Positions 26,601-57,409 of a stretch of 64,000 nt of DNA are shown piece by piece. Under the pieces are notes generated by a model. The model was not told where the DNA came from, searched no databases, and saw only the letters and a list, made by a program, of their open reading frames with translations. The DNA is from Antedon bifida (taxonomy: Eukaryota > Echinodermata > Crinoidea > Comatulida > Antedonidae): assembly GCA_963402885.1 (NCBI GenBank), contig OY727103.1:5494501-5558500 (forward strand), read 5' to 3'. Every line of letters starts with the position of its first letter. Within the stretch, counting starts at the first letter, position 1. A program made the position numbers and the translations under genes.

Positions 26601-29600
26601 AAAATAATGTGTTGTTAGATAAACTCAAAAACTCAATTTAAAACAACAGTGAGACTTTATAATTAATTAATTAAATACATGCTTTGTATGGAAGGTATAA
26701 TGAAAGAATTAACTAGCCTTTGCTAGAATTAAAACTCTAAGACACAAACAGAACATAGTACTGCATGTTGGTAAAAAAAAGGAGAGATTAAGTGATATTC
26801 AATTCAATTCAACTAGACATTTATTTCTTCCTTCAATAAAATTAGGTAATCATAACAAATTCAAGTAGAATATAAAACATGTCAATTGATGATAAAAAAA
26901 AAAAGTATACAGGTATCAATAAAAGGAAGTAGGCAGTGCCCAAGAAGATACAAATCTTGTGGCGGGCCAGCCTATTTACAGACACAGGTAAGACGGTCGA
27001 AAATTCAAAAATACAGGACGTAAGGACAGGGACATAACAAGACAGCAAAAGGAGGAAAAAAAAACAACGATCAGAATGACAGCAAATCATATCCTGACCA
27101 AGAACTGACAAATGAAACTCGAAAAAATTGCCGGAATAAAAAAGAGAGATCAATACTTTGCAATAAGGTATTTCTTAAGTTTGGAAGAAAACGTTTTTAT
27201 TGAAATAGAGTTGCCGATGTCAGGAGGTAAATTATTCCATAAATTGGAGCCGGAAAATCTTATGTTATGTTGAAAATAATTAGTGCGATGTTTCGGTATA
27301 TGGATCTTAAATTGGTTTCTTGTACAGTACGAGTGACGAACAGAATTTGGGATGAAAAAATTACACAGATGCTTAGGAAGAAGGAAATGTATTGATGAGT
27401 ACACGAATATAAATTGTTGAAAAATATTAATGTCAAAAATATTAAGGAGATTCAAGTTAGAAAACAAATGAGACGAATGAGACCGGGGTGGAACGCCAGA
27501 TATAATGCGAGTAGCCTTTTTTTGTATAATGTGAAGTTTGGTGAGATTGGATGGGTAAGTATTTGCCCATACAATGTTACAATAGCTCAGATAGGGAAGA
27601 ATTAAAGAACAGTAAATAATACGGAGGATATTTGGGGGAATGAACGAAGAAAGTCTAAACATGACACCGAGGCTCTTGGAAGTTTTGTTCTCGATTTCTT
27701 TAATGTGAGTTTTCCAAGTTAGACCACTATCGAGATAAACACCTAGAAACTTTGCGCTTTCAACACGTGGAATATCATAATTGTCAATCAGAATCTTATA
27801 TGGCGTAGTATTGATAAATCTGTCTTTTTGGGGACTCCGGAAAAGAATAAAGCTGCACTTTTTATAATTGATAGATAACTTATTACTAGAAAAATAGATG
27901 GACATGTGTTTTAAGTTGGTGTTAAGGTCATCAAAAAGAGATTGGATATTAGGGGAAGAATAGAACACGGTTGTGTCGTCAGCATAGAGAAAAAACGAGA
28001 GAAGATTAGAGCATCGGTATAAATCATTAATGTATAAAATAAATAAAAGTGGACCTAAAAGAGAACCTTGGGGGACACCGCATGTGACTGATGAAAAATG
28101 AGATAGGTGGTTTGAGTATCTAGTACATTGAGAACGATTTGCTAAGTAACTTTTAAACAACTTTAATGCAGGCCCTCGAATACCATAATGGGATAACTTA
28201 AATAAAAGAATATCATGATCGATAGTGTCAAAAGCTTTGGAAAGATCAATAAAGAGTCCAATAGCGAAATCATTGCGTTCAAAAGCGTCCACAATTTTGT
28301 TAGTAAGGTCCATAAGAGCCATGGATGTATTATATTTTTTACGAAAGCCGAATTGTTGAGAGTATAAAATATCGTATTTGGTAATAAAATTAAAAGTTCT
28401 GTCGTAAATAATTCTTTCTAGGGCTTTTGAGAAAACAGGTAAAATAGAAATAGGGCGATAGTTCGTTAAGTCAGATTTACTGCCAGATTTAAAGATGGGT
28501 GTTACACGAGCTATCTTCAATCTGCTTGGGAAAATTCCCTTAGTTAAAGAAATGTTAAAAATATGGCATAAAGGGAGGGAGATAAGTTCAGTAACTTGCT
28601 TGATGACATTCGCATGTAGGTCATCAATACCGGGGGACTTATTACTCTTGAATGAACGCAAAATTTTAATAACTTCGTCCTCATCGACCGGGGATAAAAA
28701 AATAGAATGAATATTTGGGTTAGGAAGAAATTCTTTATACGATGTGTTTGTCTTGGGTATTTGGTTAGCTAAGGTGGGACCAATTTCAGTAAAAAATGAA
28801 TTAAAAGAGTTTGCAATCTTGGTGGGATCATTTGACATTTCACCATTGCAGTTAAAAAAAGTATTACTTTGTTTGTTAGAGGATTGTTTTATAAGGGAAT
28901 TAATAGTTTTCCAAGTGGCCCTGATGTCATTTTTATGTTTAATAAAAGTATTTTTAAAATAATTTGATTTCGCAGTTTTGATAAGACAATTGATTCGGTT
29001 GCGACATTGTTTATATTTTGTTTCATTTTTCGCAGAGGGACGATGAAGAAAGTTTGAGTATAATTTTTGCCTATATTTAATGGACTTAAGAAGAGAGTCG
29101 GTCATCCAGGTCTTGAGTTTAGTTTTAGTTTTTTTGATAGTTTTGTATGGAAATGTTTTATTGTAAAGTAACGAAAAGGTATGTTCAAATTTGTTGTATG
29201 CATCATCTGGGTTTTGGGTATTTAGAATGTCAATCCATTGTTCGCTAGACAATTCTTGACGGAATTTATCAATAGTGATTTGGTTAATGCATCTAAATCT
29301 AAATGATTCATCCCTATCTGAGCTACGTACATCACAGGAAAAATACGAAATATTAAAAACGGGAAGATGGTCCGAAATATCACTAAATAATAGTCCACTA
29401 ATACTAGGGAAATCAAATTTATTAGTTATAATATTGTCAATCAGTGAGAAAGAGGACTTGGTGATTCTGGATGGTCTGTGAATAAGGGGGAGAAAATAAT
29501 TACTAAACAGAGAGTTGACAAATTGCCAAGCTTCATTATTAGATTCATTTTTTAATATATCAATATTGAAGTCACCAAGAATATAATTAATTTTGTTTTC

Positions 29601-38793: not shown

Positions 38794-39800
38794 TGTTAAT
38801 ATTCGTAATAAAAGTGTAGATAAAGTAAAGACACTATCTGCCTCCAACCAAGCTAGGCCTACCGATTGTGTTGACTGTGCGGCGGGGAGAAAACGACGTA
38901 CTCCGGCTTTTTGTGTGTTGATTACTATTGTTGTTGTTAGGCACGTTGCTAAGATTACAATGACGTAAGTTGGCGCATAGAGGGCAGCAGCAACATAAAT
39001 TCAAATTCCTCATTATATTGGTGGCGGTGTTTTAGTACTTTTTACCGGTCCATGGTACTTGAAACGGAGTTACATCTTAGGGACCCAAGCATTGTCCGTT
39101 GAAAGATATGCCCCTTGAATTAAGGAGAACATTTCGGTTTTTGGTTAGAGTTTTCGCGGGAAAATTAAACAAAACAAATAAAATACAGTAATACCAAAAT
39201 GAACTCAAGTTTATTGTTCAAGGGGATTTTAGGGAAGTTCATTCGATGATGGAGGCGTTTATTCGGGAGAGGCGTTTTTTTTTTTAAATAATTTTGGGTA
39301 TAATGGTAACATGTGTAATCAAATAAATACCCCCGGCCCTAGATATAAAATACAACAATTGATGGATAAGTGATAAAATTGAGTGCAAAATGTATTGGTC
39401 CCGATATTGGTAGGCCTACATTTGTAGATCATGTCAATCAATGATTATTCAAATTATATAAATAATCTGTTGTAATACGTTTTCAAAATGATGTTATGGG
39501 GGTGAGTATGGGGGGGGGGGGGGGGGGCGTTTATTCAAAATGATGTTCTATATGAGGGTTGGGCGTTTATTCGAGGGAGGCGTTTAATATCGAAATAGGC
39601 CTACGGTAAACCAAAACTTTCTCCGGAAAAGGGGTAGGCCTACGCATTGTTATTAAATATAATTCTTGGCCTTCGTTTAGGGGTGTCCCAAGGGGTTCTA
39701 CTGTATTACCAAACAAGTTTTACAATAATATTCATAATCTTGCTTATTAAGTCTAATTCTAATAACTTGAAGTGTTTTATAAAGTTTTTAATATTATAGA
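38794..39800. other. intergenic DNA between RIBC2 and the first MYND gene (divergent)
   Basis: It contains the RIBC2 promoter region (38794-39000; GTTGCTAAGATTAC at 38945-38958 and a TGACGTAA half-CRE just beyond it), the repeat at 39225-39605, and a TACAGTAG-family fragment ending near 39712. No coding sequence is seen. Confidence 0.55.
39225..39605. mobile_element. relative of the 34.1-kb TTTATTCGA element, with an 18-base poly-G run
   Basis: It shares with the 34096-34518 element the order: TTATTGTTCA(A/G)G, GAGGCGTTTTTTTTT, GTAGATCATGTCAATCAATG, (GG)CGTTTATTCGA. The terminal repeats are poorly preserved. The run of 18 G at 39510-39527 replaces an AGGAGGGGGTGGAGG stretch in the other copy. 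Confidence 0.65.
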
Positions 39801-39843
39801 TGGCGCTGTTAATACCATAACGTCATAACTATTGGAAATTCCC
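39801..39843 (+). promoter_or_regulatory. MYND gene 1 promoter module (GGCGCTG box, CRE-like, kappaB-like)
   Basis: GATGGCGCTGTT at 39799-39810, AACGTCAT at 39819-39826 (half CRE) and GGAAATTCCC at 39834-39843, the reverse complement of the canonical kappaB decamer GGGAATTTCC. This lies ~100 bases before the ATG at 39944. The same three boxes precede genes 2 and 3 in the same order. Function is inferred from motif identity and conservation among paralogues. Confidence 0.55.
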
Positions 39844-39943
39844 ACATTTACATACGGTAAACTTGAAACTTATCGTGTGTGGGTATATTACTATTATTAT
39901 AGGCTGCTTCCTTTTCCTCCATTTCGTTCAATGCCGTTACAGA

Positions 39944-42197
39944 ATGGACGTGGAACGAGGCTTATGTTGGCGTTGTGAGGATAAAAAGTCGGACAAGGGA
40001 AAGAAGTGTTCTAGGTGTAACATTGCTGAATACTGTGGAGAACAATGTAGGGAGCGTGATAAGCAGAGACATCAGGTTGAATGTGATATGTGGAATAGAA
40101 ATACAAAAAAGTGTTCTGCGTGTAGTAAAGAGACTGTCTGCATATGGGTAGGCTATGTTTCAATTGATTATACTGTATTATTATGCACTAGCTCAATATC
40201 TTAGATAATCTCCCTACAACAAATATGCGTTGCAGACGATGCATAAAACTAAGATATCTCAGAATTCCCACATCAAGAATCGACAAAGCAGCTTCCTTCG
40301 CGGATCATATATGTGTGGCGGGTTTACTGTACGACGTCACGAATGTCTAGTACGACGGAAGTATATTACTTCCTCCTTGATTCTACATCATTAATATAGG
40401 ATAGGACTATGTTATGGGTTTGGTCTAGATTCCCGTATAGTTAAGAACGTATTACAAAAAAAAATAAATACATAAAAAACAACAAACATTCCTTATACTA
40501 ATAGGCAATAGGTAAGTAAAATCAGCCTAACCCTAAACCTTTTTTTTTTCATGCAGTGTTCTGCCTGTCGTGAAGTGGCTTACTGTGGTGTGGATTGTCA
40601 AAGGGCCGATCGGAAACGTCATGAAACATCATGTAAAGAAACTCGAAGGGCTTTTTACAACATAGTTACAAATTACAGTCTTCGAATGCTAGGTGGGCGC
40701 CGAACAAAAATCCACGGATACTTTAGTCAAACTATTGCAGTTGATGTTTTGAAGCTAAACTTAAATGAAGCCAAACGTGTGTCTTCGATAGATTCTGAAG
40801 GTCCACTAGCAAGAGATTACAACGTTTTGTTTGGTGATGTAGGTGACTTAGGAAGCATGTTACTTACGACAGCATCGCTTCCAAAAGACTTCACCGGTAA
40901 TGTAAGGTATACATCGGCAGACATCAGTCCTTTTGTTATGGCACGAAATGTACTCTTCATCTACATGATGGTGACACAGAGTTCAAGAGATGCCATTGAA
41001 GAGACAGTTACTAATATCTGGTACTCACTTCAACTTCCTGACGAGGATTTCCATTTTCTTGTATCCATGCTGAAAGAGCTAGCTGTTCATGATGTTGATA
41101 CTCTAAAGTCTAAAACGTCTGGTGAATTGCTTCTTAACCAAGATAATCTATCAAAGATAAAAGAGGTTTGGAGTAAATGGTTGGAATTAGAATGCGACAC
41201 CGGCAAATGGAATTCCATCGATTTGGTTGGGCAGAGAACAAACTTGTTTAGGAACGGTATCTGGTCCAGTAACTCTGAGCGTGCTTCCGGTTACTGCCAA
41301 TTGGTTCCAGAAAGACATGGCGAGTCGACCGCTACATATTTTGTCAACGGACTTTTCTTAAAAGGTGACTGTGAAAGTAGTTTACGATTTGATAACCCAA
41401 CACTTACGGGACCTCCATTACTTTCATGCAAGTGTCAGCAAATTTCAACAAGGGCAGGTAACCTCGAGTATTGTATCCTTCCTCTCGATATTCCATTTCG
41501 TGGATGGGATTACATTCGAGCAAGCAAGATGTTTAAAAACGAAGATTCGATAGTCAAACTATTTCATGGTTACATTACCAGTGTCGTTAGAAATGCCGTC
41601 TCTTTTATTAAAAGACATCAGATCAGCTTTAACTGTTGCGTTGGAGATTTCACTTTATTGTACAAAGAATCAGATGTTAAACCAACGTACGATCGTATTG
41701 CAGCATCGCAAGCTGTAGACGTAGTTGGGTTTAAACAACTTCTTTCGTCAATGCGTCCTCTTCTGAGTACAACCAATAAGCATGCAGTTCTTTTGATGGA
41801 AACTCATGGTTGGCTTCAGTTTATTCCAGAAGCCGATGTAAGCCATCCAGTAAATCTCAAGAGAGCAGAGAAGATGTTAGAAGTCGTCAGGTCTGAAACT
41901 GGGTACCAAGATATAAAGAAATTACAACTATACCCTACGTGCGATTACTTCGATAACACGTCGTTGTTTATTCGTTTTTTACGAGCTGTATTTTCAGCGA
42001 CAACAGATCCAATTGTAGGCCTAGGTGTAGGTGAGCCAATCCAAAATGTTCCAGTTCCTAGCAGATGTCTAGAAGGGTTCAAATTGCGAGACTTTACGAA
42101 GGGTCGGAACAAAGTAATTCCATTTAAACATCGTCAGAATGCAAGATTATGTAACATTATTAATGGATACATGAGGAATCTCGAATGGAATTTGTAG
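39944..42197 (+). CDS. double MYND zinc finger / DUF4470 protein, paralogue 1
   Basis: Two exons: 39944-40147 and 40557-42197, phase 0, 614 aa. Two tandem MYND fingers head the protein. Finger 1 spans residues 8-47 (CWRC..CSRC..YC..C..H..C). Finger 2 spans residues 57-94 and is split by the intron after W68 (CSAC..W | CSAC..YC..C..H..C). All eight ligands of each finger are present. A DUF4470-like region follows at about 130-230 (AVDVLKLNLNEA, DYNVLFGDVGDLGSMLLTTA, ADISPFVMARNVLFIYMM), then a ~380-residue family-specific part with GQRTNLFRNGIWSSNS, FRGWDYIRASKMFKNEDSIV and a C-terminal FKLRDFTKG..KVIPF..RNLEW block. MYND fingers usually bind proline-rich peptides. DUF4470 is also found in the dynein-assembly factor DNAAF3. 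The biological role is unknown. The start follows the shared MDVE; the in-frame sequence upstream has no ATG. A possible AATAAA lies near 42680. Confidence 0.88.
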
Positions 42198-43400
42198 TGG
42201 GGAATCACTAATTAATTGCATACTATTGACGACTCCTTTTGGGTTTAAACACATGTGTTTTAGTAAATAGTAGGCTTGTATTTAACTGTATATTCATCAA
42301 AGTACTCTTGACATTCTATACTATTTGCTGTCGTTCAGTACAACATTTTTAGTCGCGACTCTACAGCTCACTATGTCGGTCGGTCGATCGGTAGACACTA
42401 ACTTGAGCACGCGACTGCAGCCATGTATATGGCATTGTTTGGTTGCACTAAGGTTCAACAATTATAAGGAAAGTCTTCTTGTGGGCGGACAACGGTCGCT
42501 GTTGATGCGATATGCCTGTCATTATGATTGCAATCAATCTCGTTTTGCGAATAAGTTGCACTGTGGTTGCAGTATAGAAGCCATCTGCCAGAACACATAT
42601 TTGCCGAGGAGTGTCTCAAACCCAAACTGATGGTAAACTAAGCATTGATGTGACAGAACAGTAGTGTAGGCCTAACTATCAATAAACTGTTAATTATCTA
42701 TAGTATATCAGCTACATTATTGTCATTTGATTAGAAAAAAAAACAAAAATGCTAATATAAATCAAATATTATTCTTCGAGAAAAAATAATTGGTTTGAAA
42801 TTTGTTCGATTTTGAACTTAGATTTTAATATAATTTATTATATATATATAGTAATAAATAAAAGATGAGCTAATGTGAAAGAAAAAAATAATAAATTATA
42901 GTTTTTAAATGTAAATGTAGGCCTAAGCTTTATTTTATTTTGTTATACTTCGAAGTATAGGGACTTTATATTTCTATTACTTTTATATGTAAACTGAAGT
43001 TAAAATGAAAATATAGAGGAAAAAAACTAATGAAGTGCGATGTTTTTTGTTTTAGAATTAGAAAAGAATAGGAAAGCCTATTATACGAGTAAATTATAAT
43101 TATCAAGAGAATTTAAACAAATAACTACCTTATGATGTATCGGAACGACTGTTGTATTAAGCCTACAAATGTGTATCTTGGTATAGGTGGCGCTATTGTT
43201 AACCTCTATTGACGTCATAGTTTAAAATTAGAATTGGGAATTCCTTATTTACTACAATTACGCCTAAAATTGCAATAAAACGATGCTGATTTGGACAGAA
43301 TTACAATATCATGAATGTCGGACGAGAAAGATAACAACATTATATTTTGAAAAAGCGTGTCTTTGTAGGTTCATGCCGGTTACAATTTCAATTAATTATA
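42198..43400. other. intergenic DNA between MYND genes 1 and 2
   Basis: The 3' flank of gene 1, AT-rich filler, and from 43141 an extra promoter-like segment resembling that of gene 3 (see the entry at 43187-43245). The open frame at 42325-42630 has no recognisable domain and is not called. Confidence 0.55.
43187..43245 (+). promoter_or_regulatory. orphan copy of the MYND promoter module
   Basis: GGTGGCGCTATT at 43187-43198, a perfect palindromic CRE TGACGTCA at 43210-43217, and GGGAATTCCT at 43236-43245. The sequence from 43141 (GACTGTTGTATTAAGCCTAC) aligns with 47863-47965 upstream of gene 3. No MYND exon follows before gene 2's own module at 43401, so this is a leftover or alternative promoter. 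Confidence 0.5.
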
Positions 43401-43453
43401 GATGGCGCTGTTGTAAACATACCAAAGCTTACGTCATTGAATTGGGAATTCCC
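43401..43453 (+). promoter_or_regulatory. MYND gene 2 promoter module
   Basis: GATGGCGCTGTTGTAAAC at 43401, TACGTCATTG at 43430-43439 and the perfect kappaB palindrome GGGAATTCCC at 43444-43453, ending 53 bases before the ATG at 43507. Confidence 0.55.
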
Positions 43454-43506
43454 AAACTTTATTATTTGAAAAGAACATTACACAATTTCATTCAATGCGT
43501 TACAGA

Positions 43507-45946
43507 ATGGACGTGGAACAAGGCTTATGTTGGCGTTGTGAGGATGAAAAGACAGAAGAAGGAAAGAAGTGTTCTAGGTGCAACATTGCTGAATATTGTG
43601 AAGAACAATGTAGGGAGCGTGATAAGCAGAGACATCAGGTTGAATGTGATATGTGGAATAGAAACAGACATTGTTTTGCTTGTGGTAAAACAACTGACTG
43701 CAAATGGGTAGGTCCTTCATGTCCCAATCTATATTAAATAACTAACTAGCCCTCATCCATGTAAAGTAGGCCTACTTAAATAGCCGTAAATGGTTGGATG
43801 GTCGTGTATAGGTTTTCGACGTCACAAAATGTTTCCCATGAATGATGATGTAGTATAACTAAGGTCTAGTATGCCTACAATTACCATGGGTATCGGATCA
43901 TCAATATTTTCCTACTGAGTATTGTGTCGGCCTATTGCTAAAAAACGCACAAATAATACCGGAAAATAAATACTAAAAATGTTAATTTTAGAACCCCGGA
44001 GGACTTGCAGAATAAACATTTCTACGTGTTGCACTTACTTTATAGACCTACTGGTTTTGTTAACCGTTCTCATTATAGGACATCAGGCCGTCTGTTAAGT
44101 TATGAATTGCCTTTGCGTGAGAAAGGTCAACAATGCATGTGCATATTTTCTTTTTGTTTTGTATTTTTACTCATATATTTTTCTTTTTGTTTATTATTTT
44201 AATTATTAAACTGATAATTCAATTCATCCGCGACTCAAAGGAAGTTGTGGAAGAACATAGCATATCATGTCTTTCTGAATGTTTTCAATTATCTTGTAGT
44301 GTACTCATTGTCGTGAAGTGGCTTACTGTGGTCAGAAGTGCCAAAGAGATGATTGGAAACATCATCAAATAATATGCCAACAAATCAAAAATTCTTTTCA
44401 AGCAATGGTTTTAAGTCATCGTCAACGGATGATGCTTAAACCGATCCGATTTTCAAATTTTCAAATGTACTTTGGTCAAAATATTGCAATTGACGTCCTG
44501 AAGCTAAACTTAAATGAAGCCAGTCTGTCTCCAACTGATGTCACATGTCCACTATCAAGAGATTACAACGTCTTATTCGGTGACGTAGGGGACTTAGGAA
44601 ACACGCTTCTCACAACTGCATCACTCTCAAAAGACTTCACTGGTAATGTAAGGTATACATTGGCAGACATCAGTCCATTTTCTATAGCAAGAAATGTGCT
44701 CTTCATCTACATGATGTTAACTCAGAATTCAAGAGATGCCATTGAAGAGACAGTTACTAATATCTGGTACTCACTTCAACTACCTGATGAGGATTTCAAT
44801 TTTCTAGTGTCCATGCTGAAAGAGCTAGTTGATCATGATGTTGATACTCTGAAGGCTAAAACGTCTGGTGAATTGCTTCTTAACCAAGAAGATCTATCAA
44901 AGATAAAAGAAATCTGGAAGAAGTGGTTGGAGCTGGAATGCGATACCAGAAAATTTGATTCAATCGATTTGGTTGGGCAGAGAACAAACTTGTTTAGGAA
45001 TGGCATTTGGTCTAGCAACTCCCAGGATGCATCTGCTTACTGTCAACTAGTCCCAGAAAGACATCTCGAATCGGTTTCTCAATATTATATCGACGGACTT
45101 TTCTTAAAAGACGATTGTCGTGGTACATTACGCTTTGATAACCCGACACTAACGGGACCCCCATTACAGTCTTCGGGAAAAATCCAACAACTTCCACCAA
45201 TGACAGGTAGCCTCGAGTATTGCATCGTTCCTCTCCATAATCCATTTCGTGGATGGGATTACATTCGAGCAAGCAAGATGTTTAAAAACGAAGATTCCAT
45301 TGTCAAGCTATTCCATGGTTATATTACTAGCGTTATGAAGAATGCTACGTATTTTATTCGCAAACATCAGATAAGGTTTAACTGCTGTGTTAGAGATTTT
45401 ACTTTTTTATGTGAAGATGCGGACGCTAAACCAAAGTACGATCGTATTACAACATCGCATGCTGTAGACATAGTTGGGTTTCAACAACTTCTTTCATCAA
45501 TGCGTCCACTTCTGAGTACAACTAATAAGCATGCGGTTCTTCTGATGGAAACTCATGGTTGGATTCAGTTTATTCCAGAAGCCAATGTAAACCATCCAGT
45601 AAATCGTGAGAGAGCAGATAAGGTTTTAGAAGTCCTCAAGTCTGAAACTGGGTGCCAAGAATTAAAGAAATTACAACTATACCCTATGTGCGAGTACTTC
45701 GATAACACATCGTTGTTTATTCGTTATTTACGAGCTGTATTTTCAGGGACAACAAATCCAAATATAGGCCTAGGTGTACGCGAGCCTATCCCAAAGTTTC
45801 CATTTACTGGCACACGTCTAGAAGGATTCGAATTGCGAGACTTTACAAAGGGTCTGAACAAGGTGATTCCGTTTCAATATCGGCAGAACGCAAGATTATG
45901 TAACATTTTTCCTGCATATCCGAGAAATCTTGAATGGCATTTTTAG
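43507..45946 (+). CDS. double MYND zinc finger / DUF4470 protein, paralogue 2
   Basis: Exons 43507-43707 and 44300-45946, phase 0, 615 aa. Same architecture as paralogue 1. Finger 1 is CWRC..CSRC..YCEEQC..H..C. Finger 2 is split by an intron at the identical W|C junction (CFACGKTTDCKW | CTHCREVAYCGQKC..). DUF4470-like region: AIDVLKLNLNEA, DYNVLFGDVGDLGNTLLTTA, ADISPFSIARNVLFIYMM. The C-terminal half is closely alike (FRGWDYIRASKMFKNEDSIV; FELRDFTKGLNKVIPF; RNLEWHF end). An in-frame ATG four codons earlier (43495, MRYR) is possible, but MDVE at 43507 is shared by all three paralogues. The intron (43708-44299) is the longest of the three. The frame is intact, so I call it functional. Confidence 0.88.
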
Positions 45947-46506
45947 GTCTGGACGACTCCATTGCTTTTAGGTTGAAATCTGTTTTGATGAACGGTACAT
46001 TTATCAAAGTATAATCTAAACACTAATCTATTAATACTCCAATATAGTTCTGCCATTTAAACACTAAGACGGACACTATAATTTATTTACATTGATATCT
46101 CTTGCTGTCGGTTACAGTACCGAGGCCCTACCACCGTCGTCGACAATTCCAAGAAACTCATGTCCCGATTTTGCACTGAGGTTTTAGATGATAAGATACA
46201 TCCATTGAGTCAACTAGAACATCTTAGTTCGATATAGACACGGTTACGGTTGCAGTTGTTGTGATATAATACCCAATGCACAGTACAGGTACGTGTGATA
46301 TAGTAACTGTTCTCAATCCTGCTACAATGATGCACTAGAGACGCTGCGTATCCGCATTCATATCATTGACCACCAACGGCGATGTTGCACTTTATATAAA
46401 CAATATGCGTATGGTTTGGGCTATCAGAAAAACCACCTTTAACTATTAGAAATGCTAAATTCAAGATTTCACATTGGCCATCGATGAAAAGAGTTTAAAA
46501 TCTGTG

Positions 46507-47072
46507 CCAACATCAATCAATCGACAACGAGGCGTTTCAACCCCACCGATGCTGAACGAAGCAGTTGGTTGCACAGAACCGAGTAGCCACCAGCATCATC
46601 GACGACGAGAAGTCTCAACCCCATCGATGCTGAACAAAGCAGCTGGTTGGACAGAACCGAGTAGCCACCAGCATCATCGACGACGAGAAGTCTCAACCCC
46701 ATCGATGCTGAACGAAGCAGCTGGTTGGACAGAACCGAGTAGCCACCAGCATCATCGACGACGAGAAGTCGCAACCCCATCGATGCTGAACCAAGCAGTT
46801 GGTTGCATGCACAGAACCGAGTAACCATCAACATCATCGACGACGAGGAGTGTCAACCCCACGGATTCTGAACTAATCAGTTGGTTGGACAGAACCGAGT
46901 ATCCACCAGCATCGTCGACGACGAGAAGGCTCAATCCCATCGATGATGAACGAAACAGTTGGTTGCACAGAACCGAGTAGCCACCAGCATCATCTACGAC
47001 GAGGCGTCTGAAGCCCACCGATTCAGAACGAAGCAGTTGGATGGACAGAACCGAGTAACCATCAAGAACATC
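46507..47072. repeat. 78-bp minisatellite, about seven copies
   Basis: The unit runs GAACGAAGCAGTTGGTTGCA, CAGAACCGAGTAGCCACCAG, CATCATCGACGACGAGAAGT, CTCAACCCCATCGATGCT. Being 26 codons long, it stays open on both strands, which explains the overlapping repetitive frames here. It is GC-richer than its surroundings. I see no start context, splice support or domain, so it is listed as a repeat, not a gene. Confidence 0.9.
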
Positions 47073-47431
47073 GAACGTGCTAATTACAGTTTTGATTTTT
47101 TTTTCAATCAAACATTATAAACATTAAAAAGTAAACTAAATACTGAAGGCCCGATAATTTCGAGTTTAGTTCTTATGTTCGTATTATCAAATAATATGTA
47201 ACTGTTAAGTACAATTTCAGAATTATTTTAAGAAAAAAAAAGGAATTGTTATTTAGTAGAAAATACATATATGAAGAAAAAAAATATTTCTTATTCGTAT
47301 TGTCCAATAATATAACTGTCCATATTCTATTTGACGAATTAATTTAAGAAAAAAAAATGTATTTATTAGTAGAAAATACATATATGAAGAAATAAAATAT
47401 TGTTTGAGCTATTCAAAATAGGGTCTTAAGC

Positions 47432-47607
47432 GTGGTTCCCACTAGCGACGCAACGCAAGGACGTAACGCAACGCAAGTGAATTGACCAATCACAAGCGAT
47501 GGCTTATTCGCTTGTGATTGCTAACTGTCTATAACTTCGCTTGTCATTGGTTAAAACGCTTGCGTTGCGTTTACGTCCTTGCGTTACGTTCTAGTGGGAA
47601 CCAAGGT
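47432..47607. mobile_element. MITE family 2, well-preserved copy
   Basis: The left end TGGTTCCCACTAGCGACGCA..CGCAAGGACGTAACGCAACG is mirrored by the right end CGTTGCGTTTACGTCCTTGC..TTCTAGTGGGAACCA. The centre also has inverted AATCACAAGCGA / TCGCTTGTGATT. There is no coding capacity. Target duplication is unclear. Confidence 0.85.
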
Positions 47608-47906
47608 TTAGTAACGAAATATTAATTTACATTCACTATTTATTCTTTAATTTAAAAAAAACACAAATTACCTGATTGAATACACAATCAGAAAATTATT
47701 GTAAAAGGAGCCAATAGTGAAAATGATCAGATATTTGGGAATTCCGTAATACATTACAAATAGCAGACACAATGAGAACCAAATCAATGTAATAATACAA
47801 CATAGTAAGTAAAGTTAATAAAAAGATATTTCGTTTAAAAAAAGAACTACTTTCTGTTGTGTGGGAATGACTGTTGTACAAGCCTACTTATTTGTGTAAT
47901 GATAGG

Positions 47907-47959
47907 CGGCGTTCTTGCTGACGTCATATTTTTGTCTACAATTAGAATTGGGAATTTCC
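47907..47959 (+). promoter_or_regulatory. MYND gene 3 promoter module
   Basis: GGCGGCGTTCTTGC, a perfect CRE TGACGTCA at 47919-47926 and the canonical kappaB decamer GGGAATTTCC at 47950-47959, ending 74 bases before the ATG at 48034. The order and spacing match genes 1 and 2. Confidence 0.55.
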
Positions 47960-48033: not shown

Positions 48034-50162
48034 ATGGATGTCGAACAAGGATTATGTTGGCGTTGTGAGGATAAAATATCGGAAAAGAAGTGTTCTAGAT
48101 GTAACATTGCTGAATATTGTGGAGAACAATGTATGGAACGTGATAAGCTGAGACATCAGGTTGAATGTGATATGTGGAATAGAAACAGACAGTGTTTCGT
48201 ATGTTCGAAAAGGACAAACTGCTTATCGGTATGATATAATATAAGCCTCTATTTTATATTTGTTTAAAAAAGTGATGACATAATGGTAGTCGTTGCACTC
48301 TAAATTAGGAAAGTACGTATGTATGTATTTGAATTACCATGCATTAGTAGTATATAGTACAGCTGTATATCTATAGTGTAGTGCTTACCGTGGACTGCAT
48401 GTTAGGAAGTATGAACAAGTGTGGTAGGTGGGGTTGGTCGCCTAATGTAAGGCCGTATTATTCAACATCGTCACTCGTTTTTCCGAGAAAACTGCCCTAA
48501 CCATCACTGTTTTGATCTTTATTATAGTGTGCTGCATGTTGTGAAATTGACTACTGCGGTAAGAAATGCCAGAAGGCCGATTGGAAGCGTCACAAACCAT
48601 CGTGTAAACAAGTTCAAAAGGCTTTTCCCGATCTTGTTAATATGTACCGTTTTTGGTCGGGTCCTACAATAGAATATTGCCCTGAATACTTTGGCTGTAC
48701 CATTGCAGTTGATGTTTTGAAGTTGAACGTAAATGAGGCCAATTCTTCAGAAGATTTAGGAAGATCACTCGAAAAAGATTACAGTGTGCTGTTTGCTGAT
48801 GTTGGGGACTTGCGAAATGTACTTCTCACAACAGCGTCACTCCCAAAAGACTTCACTGGTCATGTAAGGTATACATTGACAGACATCAGTCCATTTGTTA
48901 TGGCAAGGAATGTACTCTTCATCTACATGATGGTAACTCAAAGTTCAAGAGATGCCATTGAAGAGACCGTTACTAATATCTGGTACTCTCTTCAACTACC
49001 CGATAACGATTTTCATTTTCTAGTATCCATGCTGAAAGAGCTAGTTGATCATGATGCTGATTCTCTAAAGGCTAAAACGTCTGATGAATTGCTTCTTGAT
49101 AAAGAGAATCTATCGAAAATAAAAGAAGTTTGGAAGAAGTGGTTGGATCTACAATGCGATATCAGCAAATTTGATTCAATCGATTTGGTTGGGCAGAGAA
49201 CAGACTTGTTTAGGAATGGCATTTGGTCCAGTAACTCGCAAGGTGCATCTTCTTATTGCCAATCAGTCCCAGAAAGACATGGCGAGTCGACCGCTAACTA
49301 TTTCATCAACGGACTGTTCTTGAAACATGACGTCGACGGTATTAAATTACAATTTGATAATCCTACACTTACAGGACCTCCGTTACCAGCAAACCGGCGG
49401 GGTGCCAACACAAATCAGCAATTTATACCAGAGACATGCAACTTCGAATATTGCATTCCTTCTGATAACTTTCCATTCCGTGGATGGGACTACATCCGAG
49501 CAAGTAAAATGTTTAAAAATGAAGATTCCATTGTCGATCTATTTCATAGTTACATTACGAGTGTTGTTCGAAATGCGATGTCTTTTATCCAAAACCACCA
49601 GATAAGTTTTAACTGTTTTGTGAAAGAATGCACTACGCTATGTAAAGACGTTGCGATAAAGCATGACCGCATTATGGCATCGAATGTTGCAGATTTCATT
49701 GGCGATAAGCAACTTCTTTCATCAATGCGTCCTCTTATAAGTGAAACTAATAAACATGCAGTTCTTATTATGCAAACAGTACATTGGGTAGAGTTGATTC
49801 CGCAAGCAAACATACGCAATAAACTTACTCGTGAGAGGTCAGATCAGCTTGTAGCCGTCGCCAGAGCAGACACTGGTCGCCAAGATTTAAAACAATTACA
49901 ACCCTTTGAATACTTTGATAACACTTTGTTGTTTATACGTTATTTACGTGCTTTATTTACAGCGGTCACAGAGGAAAGTGATTTGTTGAGTAAAAAAGTA
50001 AATATTCAAAATGTTCCTTCTTCTAGAAGTAGTGTAGAAGGATTTAAATTGAGAGATTTCACAAAGGGTCTAAACAAGGTTATTCCATTTCGATATCGCC
50101 TGAATGCCAGAATGTGCAATCTTCAGTCGGATCATCTAAGGAATCTTGAATGGTATCTGTAA
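48034..50162 (+). CDS. double MYND zinc finger / DUF4470 protein, paralogue 3
   Basis: Exons 48034-48228 and 48528-50162, phase 0, 609 aa. Finger 1: CWRC..CSRC..YCGEQC..H..C. Finger 2 is split at the same point (CFVCSKRTNCLS | CAACCEIDYCGKKC..H..C). The DUF4470-like region AVDVLKLNVNEA, DYSVLFADVGDLRNVLLTTA, TDISPFVMARNVLFIYMM is followed by the shared family tail (FRGWDYIRASKMFKNEDSIV, FKLRDFTKGLNKVIPF). It is the most diverged of the three: Trp replaced by Ser at the exon junction, GDVGDL changed to ADVGDL, a shortened inter-finger spacer and a different 320-480 region. The frame is fully open. The role is unknown; co-regulation with its neighbours is inferred from the shared promoter boxes. 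Confidence 0.88.
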
Positions 50163-52470: not shown

Positions 52471-53779
52471 CTAGGCGTTGGTCACCCTTATGTCACTTAA
52501 GACCCTTCCGCACGCCTCAAAGCACGGATCGCAACATGTCCTCACACAAGCTCCATAGATGATCTTGATAGACTTCAACCAGACCATGTACATACTAATG
52601 CATGGAGTGATGACCCAGATGTGAAGAAACGAGAGGTAGGCAAACTCACAACCCCAGAAGAAGGCATAAGGAACTCCGTAACAAAGTGCGAATAAAGTGT
52701 AAGCGATGTCTCTGGAGCAGGTAAAGCATTTGTGAGCTAGCTTCCATACACACTGCGGACTGTGGACACCGTCTGGTTCAGCAAGTACGTCTTCAAATCC
52801 AACCTAACAACAAGAACAATAATAATTTTACGATTAAAACACTATTTTCATATTCACAAACATTTCATTTGAATTTCTTCATCAACCTCTCTGTAAAACG
52901 ACGAAAGTCAAAAAGGCTGAAGATAACTGATATAGTTCTATTGTAAAAACCAACAAAATAAGTTTTGTTTTTCGCACTTTCAATGCATAACAATACGATT
53001 ACATATTGACAAGTACGTCTCCAAAGTTATAATTAATTTGAATGATTTAATTGTATGTGGACAATTCAGCATAGTTATCAATACTAGATTTTGTGTTAGA
53101 GCAGATTATATATTCTAAAACTCTGTCTACACTATCGAACTAGTTTGACAAAAAAGTGTGGTAGTGATATGCTTAATGGTAGTGATATGACATCATCATG
53201 TCCGTATATGGGCACATCACATTTTGCTGTCACATAAAGTTTGATAGTTTAGACAGAGCTTTAGAAACTGAACCTGAGATATGATTGTTAATGAAATCCA
53301 CAACTGGAAAATGCTAATTGTACTAATTAGTAGGCCAACCAAAGCCAACTCCAGCGTATAAATGATAGGCCTCGTGGGCCTACTTAAGCTCTAGGCTTCT
53401 AGTAGTACTAGACTATAAGTCATGCCTATTCCTATTTACAAATATACGTTTTCTTTATTGTATTAGGCCTACTGTTTGTTGATGTATTTCAATAATTTTT
53501 TTAAACTGTCGCCAATACGAGACTATATCAGAAATCAGAAATCATGTTATATGCCATGAGCCCAGGTTTCGTTATTAGAGATTACAAAGAAAAAGATTTA
53601 TTACTATAATATATCTATCAATCAATGTGATGGTGTTCCTACAATGGAGATGAAACATTTCCATACGAAATAAAAGTTCACATAAAGTATGATGATAATA
53701 ATAAAGATACACATACCTGTACATGGGCGTTAATTGAACTAGGATCTCTGTTGAACATATCAAGCGGGGCTGGATCCAT
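52471..53779 (-). CDS. caveolin paralogue A
   Basis: Hairpin membrane protein of caveolae. Exon 1 is 53779-53717 (21 codons) and exon 2 is 52803-52471; the splice is phase 0 with a GTATGT donor, giving 131 aa. Exon 2 opens VGFEDVLAEP (caveolin signature, Ile to Leu), then a scaffolding-like QCVWKLAHKCFTC (38-50) and a hydrophobic hairpin (LFALCYGVPYAFFWGCEFAY; LSFLHIWVITPCISMYMVW) with the conserved FLHIW and TPCI. The C-terminus is cysteine-rich: CVRTCCDPCFEACG, ending RVLSDIRVTNA. The N-terminus before the signature is only ~23 residues against ~65 in human CAV1. The promoter differs from that of paralogues B and C. It faces paralogue B head-to-head across 2.6 kb. Confidence 0.9.
53116..53263. 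mobile_element. foldback MITE family 1, copy 7
   Basis: TAAAACTCTGTCTACACTAT at the left and GTTTAGACAGAGCTTTA at the right, with TA on both sides. It lies inside the caveolin A intron (52804-53716). Confidence 0.85.
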
Positions 53780-56230
53780 CTTGGCTATTTATTTGTGTAA
53801 AATATAAATACAAAATCAATGCCTGCTTTTACCGAGTATTGCCAGATTCACACTGTTTCATTCTTGAAGTTAGAACTTGCAAAAAAGCTGAAAATGGACG
53901 AAGGTGAGTTGTGAATTCCACTAATTGGAATTAATAGGATTCGTAATTTAAATTAAATATATACATTGTGTTAATAATAATTAAATTATTCTAAAAATGT
54001 GTATAGATTGAGTATGAATAATCTTATAATTTTAATTTAATAATTGTGTAAAATTAAAAATAAAATGTTTGATCGAAACATTTCTTGGTGTTTGTTTTAG
54101 CAACGCGCTTTATGTTTTCTCCTATCTCTAGGACTCATGATAACGACGTACTTAACAGTTTTATTTTGTTCCACAAATGACAATAGGATTAGCAGACCGA
54201 AAATTTCGTAACTTAGTGAAATATTCTTTAGAACCCCAAAACAAAATAAAAAGAAAAAGAAGGCATTACGTAGTGTTACAGCAGTTAACACCTATAACTA
54301 GTAGGTCCTACTGTTTTAAATAGACTAGACCTAACTAGTTAGTAACTAGCTAGTAACTGAACAAATCTAAAATATACAATACCATACATTTCACAACTTA
54401 AATTGGCCTTATTTCTAATTTTTGTTATGCTTGGTTTAGAATGTGGTTTCAAATATTAACAAATATTTTATTTTCATTTTTTATTATAAATATTCTATTG
54501 TGTACATCTAATTTCTATTTTTTCTAGGTTCCGTGGTTTAAAATGTATTATATTTAGAATATTATTTAGAATTTGGAAATTCACACCTCCTTCCCAAATA
54601 ACATGACCTAAGAAGCGAACTCATAAAGTGCGGACATTGCTTCTTGTGGATACCAGCATAATATTGAACGATTTTTGTTATATATGTTACTAGTTAGGTA
54701 CTATATAGTTGATTTTAAAAGGAAAGCATATTTGTTTTTCGAGAAAAATTGTTTGTATTTGTGTTAAATATAAAACCGTGTTTCAATTAAAAACGTATAG
54801 GTTTAATACTGATCACATAAGGTGAGATATTTTTAGCATTGTATTTACTAATTCTTGACGATTTCTCACCGTGGCAACTGTCAATTACCTCTGTAGCGAT
54901 AGATAACATATGACATCATAACACTTTTTACGTAGTTTTTTATGTTAAAAAACAGTGCTCAAATCTTTTACAATTTCGCTTACACAACCCGTAATTGGGG
55001 AGTTGTGATATTCAATAAGAATTTGTTACTATAGATATTAAGAATGAATGGGTATATTGTTAGCGTTAATAATAGGATTAGCGTAGTGTAAGATCGATTG
55101 AAAATAGTAGTCATGGAAATTGAATAGATAATAAAGAATAACAGTTGTGAATTATACTACAGATACTGGGCAATAACCTGTGTCTAGCATTACAAAAAAC
55201 TCGCTAGATTTAAAAAAACTGCAAACACAGTGATCATCAACCTTTTTTCATTTGAAAACCGTCAAACACTCACATACTATTAGTTCATGATCTTTTAAAG
55301 CTCTGTCTACACTATCAAACTTTATGTGACAAAAATGTAATGTGCCCATATATGGACATGATGATGTCATATCACTGCCATATTTTGGTAACAAACTAGT
55401 TTGATAGTGTAGACAGAGCTTGAGAACTGTATGTGTTCATCGGATTTTTCAGACTTGTTGAACAGGAGAATCTTACTAATTATAAGCCTAGTAAGTCAAA
55501 TTCTCTTAGTATAATGTAATTAGTTTGACCATTAATGACACACCTTTAGAATTGTACACCTTTGGAACTACTTTGTAACTAACTAGTAACTATAGCTGAC
55601 TTAGTAAATAGCCAGTAACTGAACAATATTCTAGGCTTAATATATAAAAGTGTCCTTTTGTTTCTAGTTCGTTTCAAGGTGAAAGGTGTCCCCTTAATAG
55701 GGTGTCCCTGAATAGAGTTGGCTGTAGTAAAGGCCTATTAATGTATTTTTATAGTTCGTTTCAGGAAAGTGTCCCGGGTTATAAGGGCGTTTCTTACGTC
55801 TTTGGTATAATTGTGCTACCAGTATACGTATATTATACAAACACATCTTCAAATACCTACAAATCAAATTACTTCGCTTACAATTTAAATATTATTCATT
55901 GCTGTTTATCATGCATAAATAATTTTAATAAGATTGGATAGGTGAACATAATAATATAACTGATTGAATACTAGTTTATTTTGATATAAATAGCGTTCAC
56001 CTTGGTAACAAAATAACGGAACTATGGATTTGTGAGATATTCTACTTTTGGGTATGTTCGATTATTTTCAAAACTATTGTTTTGAAATGTTAACAGAGCT
56101 TGGAAAAATTGATCTATTTTCATAGTAGTCAAAATTGGAAGTGCAGCCAATTACAGTATCAATAAAAACAATAGTGTATTGTTTGAACTAAGTCTAATGA
56201 GCGTTCGAGAGTAAGTCAATTCTGAGGTGT
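53780..56230. other. intergenic DNA between head-to-head caveolins A and B
   Basis: Promoter side of both genes. A TATA-like TATTTATATTTT lies ~30 bases upstream of the caveolin A ATG on the - strand. The rest is AT-rich, with a MITE (55296-55421) and a TACAGTAG-family fragment with GTGTCCCCTTAATAGGGTGT (55675-55785). No gene is called. Confidence 0.5.
55296..55421. mobile_element. foldback MITE family 1, copy 8
   Basis: TAAAGCTCTGTCTACACTAT at the left and TTTGATAGTGTAGACAGAGC at the right. This is the cleanest pair of termini in the window. The interior is shortened to ~80 bp. Confidence 0.9.
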
Positions 56231-56412: not shown

Positions 56413-57409
56413 ATGGATCCAGGAGAAATTGACATGCAAAACAGAGACCCAAGCAGTATAAACGCTCATGTCCAGGTAAGTTGTAGTTTTAGTAGTTTTA
56501 TTTCAAAGTTTTTGTTGCTATGGTGTTGCATTTAGTCTAAAAAAATAAGATAAAAATAAAACTGCCTAGCAACAAGTTGTCTTTGATTGTCAGTACTTTT
56601 GTTTTGTTTTATATTAATATTATTATTATTATATGCTATGTTTTAATGAATATCATTGTTAATAATCGGTTTCGTAGTGACAGTTTTCGTGCAAAAATAC
56701 TTTAGTTAGAAAAAGTGGAAATAAAGTAATGGATATTCATCGGAAAAAATAAAACGTATTGAAGCGTATATCAATTGCGAATGCACGCACAGATTAAAAC
56801 GTTGCAGCATAAATAAAATAACTGGTTTAACAGAAGTTGTTATGTTATAATCAACGCTTATATATTTTAGTACAGGGCGTATTTTAGGTCAATTATGTGT
56901 GTGTTCGGCAAATTATCTTAACATTAATATGAATTTGATATAATTTCAACTGAATTAATCATATTCGATAATAATATAATTGTTTACAGTATTGAGATTT
57001 TCGTAAATAAAAACAAATGTCTATGTTATTATTAGCTTCTTCAGTATCAATTATTCTATTATCTATTTTTTACTAGGTTGGATTTGAAGACGTAATTGCT
57101 GAACCCGATGGTGTCCATAGTCCGCAGTGTGTATGGAAGTTAGCTCACACATGCTTCACATGCGCAAGAGACATCGCCTACACTTTATTCGCGCTTTGTT
57201 ACGGAGTTCCTTATGCCTTCTTCTGGGGATGTGAGTTTGCCTACCTCTCGTTTCTTCACATTTGGGTCATCACTCCATGCATCAGTATGTACATGGTCTG
57301 GTTGAAGTCTATCAAGATCATCTATGGAGCTTGTGTGAGGACATGTTGCGATCCGTGCTTCGAGGCGTGCGGGAGATGTTTCAGCGATATACGGGTTACG
57401 AAAGCTTGA
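56413..57409 (+). CDS. caveolin paralogue B
   Basis: Exon 1 is 56413-56475 (donor GTAAGT); exon 2 is 57077-57409; phase 0; 131 aa. Signature FEDVIAEP at residues 24-31. Scaffolding-like segment QCVWKLAHTCFTC 38-50. Intramembrane hairpin ~58-96 with the invariant Pro of YGVPY (P66). C-terminal CVRTCCDPCFEACGRCFSDI with six cysteines within 16 residues (107-122), more than the palmitoylated cysteines of vertebrate caveolins. The role inferred from the family is membrane curvature and caveola formation through oligomers at the plasma membrane. The N-terminus is very short, with no counterpart of the CAV1 Tyr14 region. A hairpin repeat (57551-57582) lies in the probable 3' UTR. The start ATG is in an ACC-like context (CGCCATGG). 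Confidence 0.93.

Follow-up and report, generated by a model that had tools for sequence, protein, structure and literature searches.

The E-selectin promoter carries an ATF element together with several kappaB sites. In the interferon-beta (IFN-beta) enhancer, ATF-2/c-Jun, interferon regulatory factors (IRFs) and NF-kappaB occupy adjacent sites, as described in two reports (PMC3116919, PMC3192840), and rapid-response NF-kappaB genes of the mouse have clusters of kappaB sites within 150–200 bp, as described in a third (PMC12507517). We examined three tandem genes in a 64,000-nucleotide stretch (the window; positions 5,494,501–5,558,500 of contig OY727103.1, here C16) from the crinoid Antedon bifida, whose genome assembly comprises 315.6 Mb in 27 contigs. 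The genes encode MYND zinc fingers and DUF4470, and each is preceded by a kappaB-like site with a neighbor resembling the cyclic AMP response element (CRE).

The IFN-beta enhancer is alike in that ATF/CRE-type and kappaB sites lie close together just 5′ of an inducible gene. IRF sites separate its ATF and kappaB sites, whereas in the MYND promoters the two lie 6–23 bp apart. The genes are non-homologous; the likeness is one of principle only, and no enhanceosome is claimed. The E-selectin promoter likewise combines a variant CRE/ATF element with several kappaB sites close by, but the gene is unrelated and the sites differ in number and arrangement; the variant, which we take to be TGACATCA, is presumably the complement of TGATGTCA, found in two paralogues described below (C7b, C7c). 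Clusters of the Cxcl1, Cxcl2 and Tnf type are matched by several kappaB-like sites per few hundred bp in the second and third window genes (g2, g3) and in the paralogue C15c; the mouse clusters combine one strong with many weak sites, whereas the matches scored in the MYND promoters are near-palindromic.

We consider it fairly probable, from comparison of the promoter sequences, that the pair constitutes a proximal promoter module of the MYND-DUF4470 family, kept by selection, on which one Rel/NF-kappaB and one basic leucine zipper (bZIP) dimer would assemble and which would make the family signal-inducible. The Rel/NF-kappaB dimer would sit on the palindrome GGRAWTYCC, and the bZIP dimer (ATF/CREB/Jun type) on the adjoining TGAYGTCA-like site, usually 6–8 or 16–18 bp off, the module lying some 60–300 bp 5′ of the ATG. 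Whatever activates Rel, such as infection, injury or stress, would then turn the tandem genes on together. We infer the binding proteins, activation by their binding and the signal involved; joint induction of the MYND genes by immune or stress triggers would follow from the usual role of Rel factors. The genes lie head to tail with two coding exons each; genes and sites, in window coordinates, are as follows.

39799–39843, + strand: module of gene 1 (g1), with GGCG box GATGGCGCT at 39799–39807 (GGCGCT at 39802), ACGTCA at 39820–39825 and kappaB-like GGAAATTCCC at 39834–39843 (−110 relative to the ATG)
39944–42197, + strand: gene 1, coding exons 39944–40147 and 40557–42197, 614 amino acids
43186–43244, + strand: distal module of g2, with GGCGCT at 43189, TGACGTCA at 43210–43217 and kappaB-like GGGAATTCC at 43236–43244 (as a 10-mer, GGGAATTCCT at 43236, −271 from the ATG)
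43401–43453, + strand: proximal module of g2, with GGCGCT at 43404, ACGTCA at 43431–43436 and kappaB palindrome GGGAATTCCC at 43444–43453 (−63 relative to the ATG)
43507–45946, + strand: gene 2, exons 43507–43707 and 44300–45946, 615 amino acids
47737–47745, + strand: extra kappaB-like GGGAATTCC, about 300 bp 5′ of g3, with no CRE-like site within 26 bp
47905–47959, + strand: module of g3, with GGCGGCGTT at 47905–47913 (GGCGTT at 47908), TGACGTCA at 47919–47926 and kappaB-like GGGAATTTCC at 47950–47959 (−84 relative to the ATG)
48034–50162, + strand: gene 3, exons 48034–48228 and 48528–50162, 609 amino acids

The GGCG box, CRE-like site and kappaB decamer that the original prediction placed before each gene all lie where it had put them. 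Its count of one module per gene holds for g1 and g3; in g2 it had overlooked the distal copy (43186–43244), 208 bp from the proximal one. That copy has a perfect CRE at 43210, so the one correctly seen in g3 (47919) is not unique, and its kappaB-like 10-mer fits the proposed GGGRNWYYCC on neither strand. Against the 10-bp consensus GGGRNNYYCC, taken from the mouse study (PMC12507517), the match is complete on one strand for three of the window's four modules (GGGAATTTCC twice, GGGAATTCCC), and the g2 distal site and the C7/C15 sites TGGAAATTCC each miss by one position. Intron 1 of gene 1 and intron 1 of gene 2 also contain GACGTCAC (40334 and 43819).

Paralogue clusters were found on contigs C7 (one fragment plus four genes whose first exon was identified, C7a–C7d) and C15 (three genes). 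GGRAWTYCC was fixed from the window alone, before these sequences were obtained. Across the 47 kb of the two clusters it has seven matches, and each of the seven precedes the start codon in a MYND first exon by 82–219 bp: one each in C7a, C7b, C7c and C15a, and three in C15c. The predicted selection on a Rel-type site is thus well supported, and the case for the kappaB half, as far as sequence can make it, is stronger than first claimed. In this same interval, GGAAATTCC with AYGTCA nearby is present in five of the six paralogues with an identified first exon; the CRE-like neighbor is ATGTCA in C7a, C7b and C7c, and ACGTCA in C15a. Within C7, ATGTCA...GGAAATTCC is retained in three of four genes while the surrounding DNA has changed. 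C15b (L014), whose second exon is intact, has no recognizable first exon and was omitted from all promoter counts; GGRAWTYCC has no match upstream of it. The GGCG box is absent from all six paralogue promoters and was rejected on that ground as part of the deep module, being something that the C16 cluster added; of the proposed three boxes this leaves the kappaB site and, less surely, its CRE-like neighbor.

The nine MYND promoters (three window, six paralogue; 300 bp each, 2.7 kb) were compared with the rest of 147,053 scanned bases, comprising the window, two 10-kb flanks, the C7 and C15 clusters and five other loci; the remaining fetched loci, mostly overlapping, were excluded. Pairs defined as AYGTCA-N4-26-GGRAWTYCC, searched on both strands with the 4–26 bp range set after the sequences had been seen, number nine in the promoters and none in the other 144,353 bases. 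GGRAWTYCC has 12 promoter matches and 3 outside, two of the latter within 6.4 kb around Rel-homology exons; GGAAATTCC has 9 and 1, the one in a 3.1-kb stretch around such an exon. In 3000 dinucleotide shuffles, which treat tandem copies as unrelated so that the counts overstate independence, GGRAWTYCC (observed in 8/9 promoters) reached at most 2, the pair (also 8/9) at most 1, and any GGCG-CRE-kappaB triple (3/9, the window promoters) was never seen. A motif-free search found TGGAAATTCC as the sole 10-mer common to all three clusters, in seven of nine promoters; any cluster-wide 10-mer arose in 16 of 300 shuffles, none in more than three promoters. Taking one promoter per cluster, TGGAAATTCC was common in 12 of 24 combinations, and at least 10 shared bases occurred in 5 of 2000 shuffled trios. 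The CRE-kappaB distance is 6–8 or 16–18 bp in eight of nine pairs (23 bp in g3); this phase clustering (p about 0.01, or 0.05 with close copies merged, within that post hoc range) hints that the sites lie on one helical face.

Several points weigh against a conserved Rel-bZIP module. C7 and C15 are moderately related and tandem copies are non-independent, leaving essentially one deep comparison, C16 with C7/C15. C7d retains merely a degraded TGAAAATTCT without a CRE-like form, and in C15c the CRE-like ATGTCA is on the opposite strand, between two kappaB sites. AYGTCA alone, in 8/9 promoters, was equalled by 1 of 3000 shuffles, and it is only about 2.9-fold denser in promoters (3.33 vs. 1.16 per kb outside). 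The CRE-like half is less certain than the kappaB half, and we hold it with moderate confidence, because the ATGTCA form was admitted post hoc, once the paralogues had been seen, and strict ACGTCA alone is in 4/9 promoters (5 matches, with 33 outside): the full TGACGTCA is at 43210 and 47919, ACGTCA in g1, g2 proximal and C15a, and only ATGTCA forms in C7a–C7c and C15c. By eye, an acceptor-like TTACAG precedes the ATG of g1 and g2, in which case the start site might be elsewhere. The looser GGGRNWYYCC was rejected as an unspecific search consensus: the nine promoters hold 4 matches, of which one belongs to no module, and the other scanned DNA holds 17, of which 11 fall within repeats arrayed at the end of the window.

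The palindrome might be under selection for a reader other than NF-kappaB/Rel, which we think unlikely though worth keeping in view; examples are NFAT5, with its TGGAAA-type sites, a zinc finger of the Schnurri/HIVEP kind, and CSL/Su(H) acting at TGGGAA. TGGAAATTCCC, present in g1 and g3, is taken to fit the NFAT5 consensus. NFAT and kappaB motifs overlap (PMC12507517). The flanking TT/AA is frequently retained, beyond the needs of a Rel site. However, neither the NFAT5 nor the CSL consensus accommodates every site, g2 having TGGGAATTCC and C7/C15 having TGGAAATTCCA, and what all sites have in common, GGRAWTYCC, consists of two Rel-type half-sites in a near-palindrome.

Candidate Rel readers are encoded in the genome. 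Rel-homology domains score above cut-off on C11, C14 and at two places on C12. The DNA-contact motif RFRYxCEG reads RFRYECEG in the C11 and C14 genes, and one C12 gene has RFRYQVEG instead. The C12 places are about 14 kb apart (L037, C12:26854463; and C12:26868595–26869244). Near the Rel-homology exons are kappaB-like sites, GGAAATTCC at position 2236 of L032 (C14) and GGAATTCCC at 2223 of L033 (C11), as expected if Rel genes self-regulate.

It is far less likely that the module simply traveled within a duplicated unit and has yet to diverge. Within C16 shared ancestry is plain beyond the boxes: in upstream alignments g1 pairs with the g2 proximal module and g3 with the g2 distal one, synonymous divergence (dS) among the three genes is 0.44–0.80, and the GGCG box is restricted to this cluster. 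The original prediction that boxes are conserved more than spacers holds for g1 against g2 proximal (23/24 box positions identical vs. 102/155 of all aligned positions) and is mixed for g2 distal against g3, where the kappaB core is 8/9, the GGCG box 7/9 and the whole 118/163 identical, and the CRE, perfect in both, is displaced 5 bp and hence scores 2/8. The ancestor of the three genes may have had two modules, of which g1 lost one and g3 the other; later duplication or exchange is a possible alternative origin of the two modules in g2. Across clusters, the exon-2 amino acid identity of window genes to C7/C15 is 43–47%, with dS of 1.6 to saturated, and C7-C15 dS is 0.51–0.59. These dS ranges omit C7a (C7:11014.5–11016.2 kb, L018), whose exon 2 stays in frame for only 65 codons; when C7a is included, C16-C7 dS reaches infinity and C7a-C15 dS is 0.76–1.23. 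The C7a promoter retains its CRE-like and kappaB pair despite the early frame break. The prediction had named uniform conservation along the entire upstream sequence as the mark of simple recent duplication, and that is not what we see: genome-wide DNA searches with the promoters, very common words skipped, found no relatives outside their own cluster, yet the kappaB site and its CRE-like neighbor persist from C16 to C7/C15. Shared ancestry is also poorly compatible with the motif-free, background and shuffle results. Recent duplication does not account for sites that recur in three clusters differing in age and that, between C16 and C7/C15, were kept while dS neared saturation and promoter similarity dropped out of reach of the DNA searches.

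Chance matches, or a dispersed repeat carrying the boxes, we regard as extremely improbable: GGCGYT and AYGTCA are indeed common words (41 and 168 matches outside promoters, with 3 and 9 inside), but chance conflicts with the shuffle tests, 0 of 300 shuffles coming near the TGGAAATTCC count, and the repeat was rejected on the promoter searches, which, with very common words skipped, returned only the cluster's own copies.

The products of the family have two MYND fingers preceding DUF4470. In all three window genes, identical in layout, Pfam finds the exon-1 finger above cut-off and DUF4470 in exon 2. The second finger accompanies DUF4470 in exon 2 of g1, is slightly below cut-off in g2 (partial stretch searched), and lies outside the submitted stretch in g3. 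A search of solved structures (E up to 1) returned 37 sequences, the best being the DEAF1 MYND (E 0.00062); nearly all were MYND matches and one was at chance level, with nothing convincing over DUF4470. A predicted structure of the second exon, for which just the three window proteins had been aligned, was discarded (mean predicted local distance difference test score (pLDDT) 30, predicted template modeling score (pTM) 0.24). The closest known proteins are those of the MYND-DUF4470 type and DNAAF3 (PF14737), from which the window products differ by their two MYND fingers ahead of DUF4470; another match, at C12:855 kb and distinct from the family, resembles DNAAF3 in sequence. Literature searches combining MYND with DUF4470, or zinc finger MYND with coelomocyte, found no paper, and those for MYND with crinoid, echinoderm, innate immunity, NF-kappaB or gene-family expansion found nothing on this family among the papers listed. 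By eye, an extra ATG lies shortly 5′ of the MDVE start in g1 (39931, out of frame) and g2 (43495, in frame), with one base differing; in both genes the acceptor-like TTACAG comes after it.

Among other features of the window, the DNA separating gene 2 from gene 3 contains 6.9 tandem copies of a 78-bp unit (46520–47061). Downstream of the cluster are near-identical caveolin exons (Pfam Caveolin) in opposite orientation, 52474–52803 (−) and 57077–57406 (+). Elements resembling miniature inverted-repeat transposable elements lie at 47430–47620, 53130–53270 and 55296–55420 and at 1310–1480 of L052, the last three apparently one family by eye; a 700-codon open reading frame at 27150–29252 (−) resembles, also by eye, a reverse transcriptase of non-long-terminal-repeat retrotransposons. 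The smallest contig found, C27, is the mitochondrial genome (15,844 bases). Its cox1 strand (15,500 bases read) has 26.4% A, 46.9% T, 11.3% C and 15.4% G, near the 26.9, 44.9, 12 and 16.1 of the Florometra mitogenome, whose high T and low C are called crinoid-specific (PMC7748595). Our own reading of the C27 reading frames places nad4L between nad4 and nad5. A rearrangement of nad4L within crinoids is reportedly the title subject of a paper cited there.

Promoters of this kind are known; what is new is deep retention on an uncharacterized family. It is conceivable, though we lean somewhat against so broad a reading, that an ancient composite Rel-bZIP promoter marks out an inducible crinoid gene family that had escaped notice and unites the MYND-DUF4470 genes on three chromosomes into a regulon under Rel control. 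Such a regulon would parallel, in an invertebrate, the inducible effector families of interferon type, and would be recognizable from sequence alone since its kappaB site would have outlasted all other promoter similarity. The clusters would allow a composite promoter to be followed cleanly through tandem and between-chromosome duplication and spacing rules to be tested on it, since g2 has gained a second module and C15c has three sites, C7d has lost its site and g3 shows a shift of 5 bp. If the module is real, it would be the first functional handle on MYND-DUF4470 genes and would make them candidates for effectors of stress or immune responses in a class of echinoderms whose immunology has been little studied.

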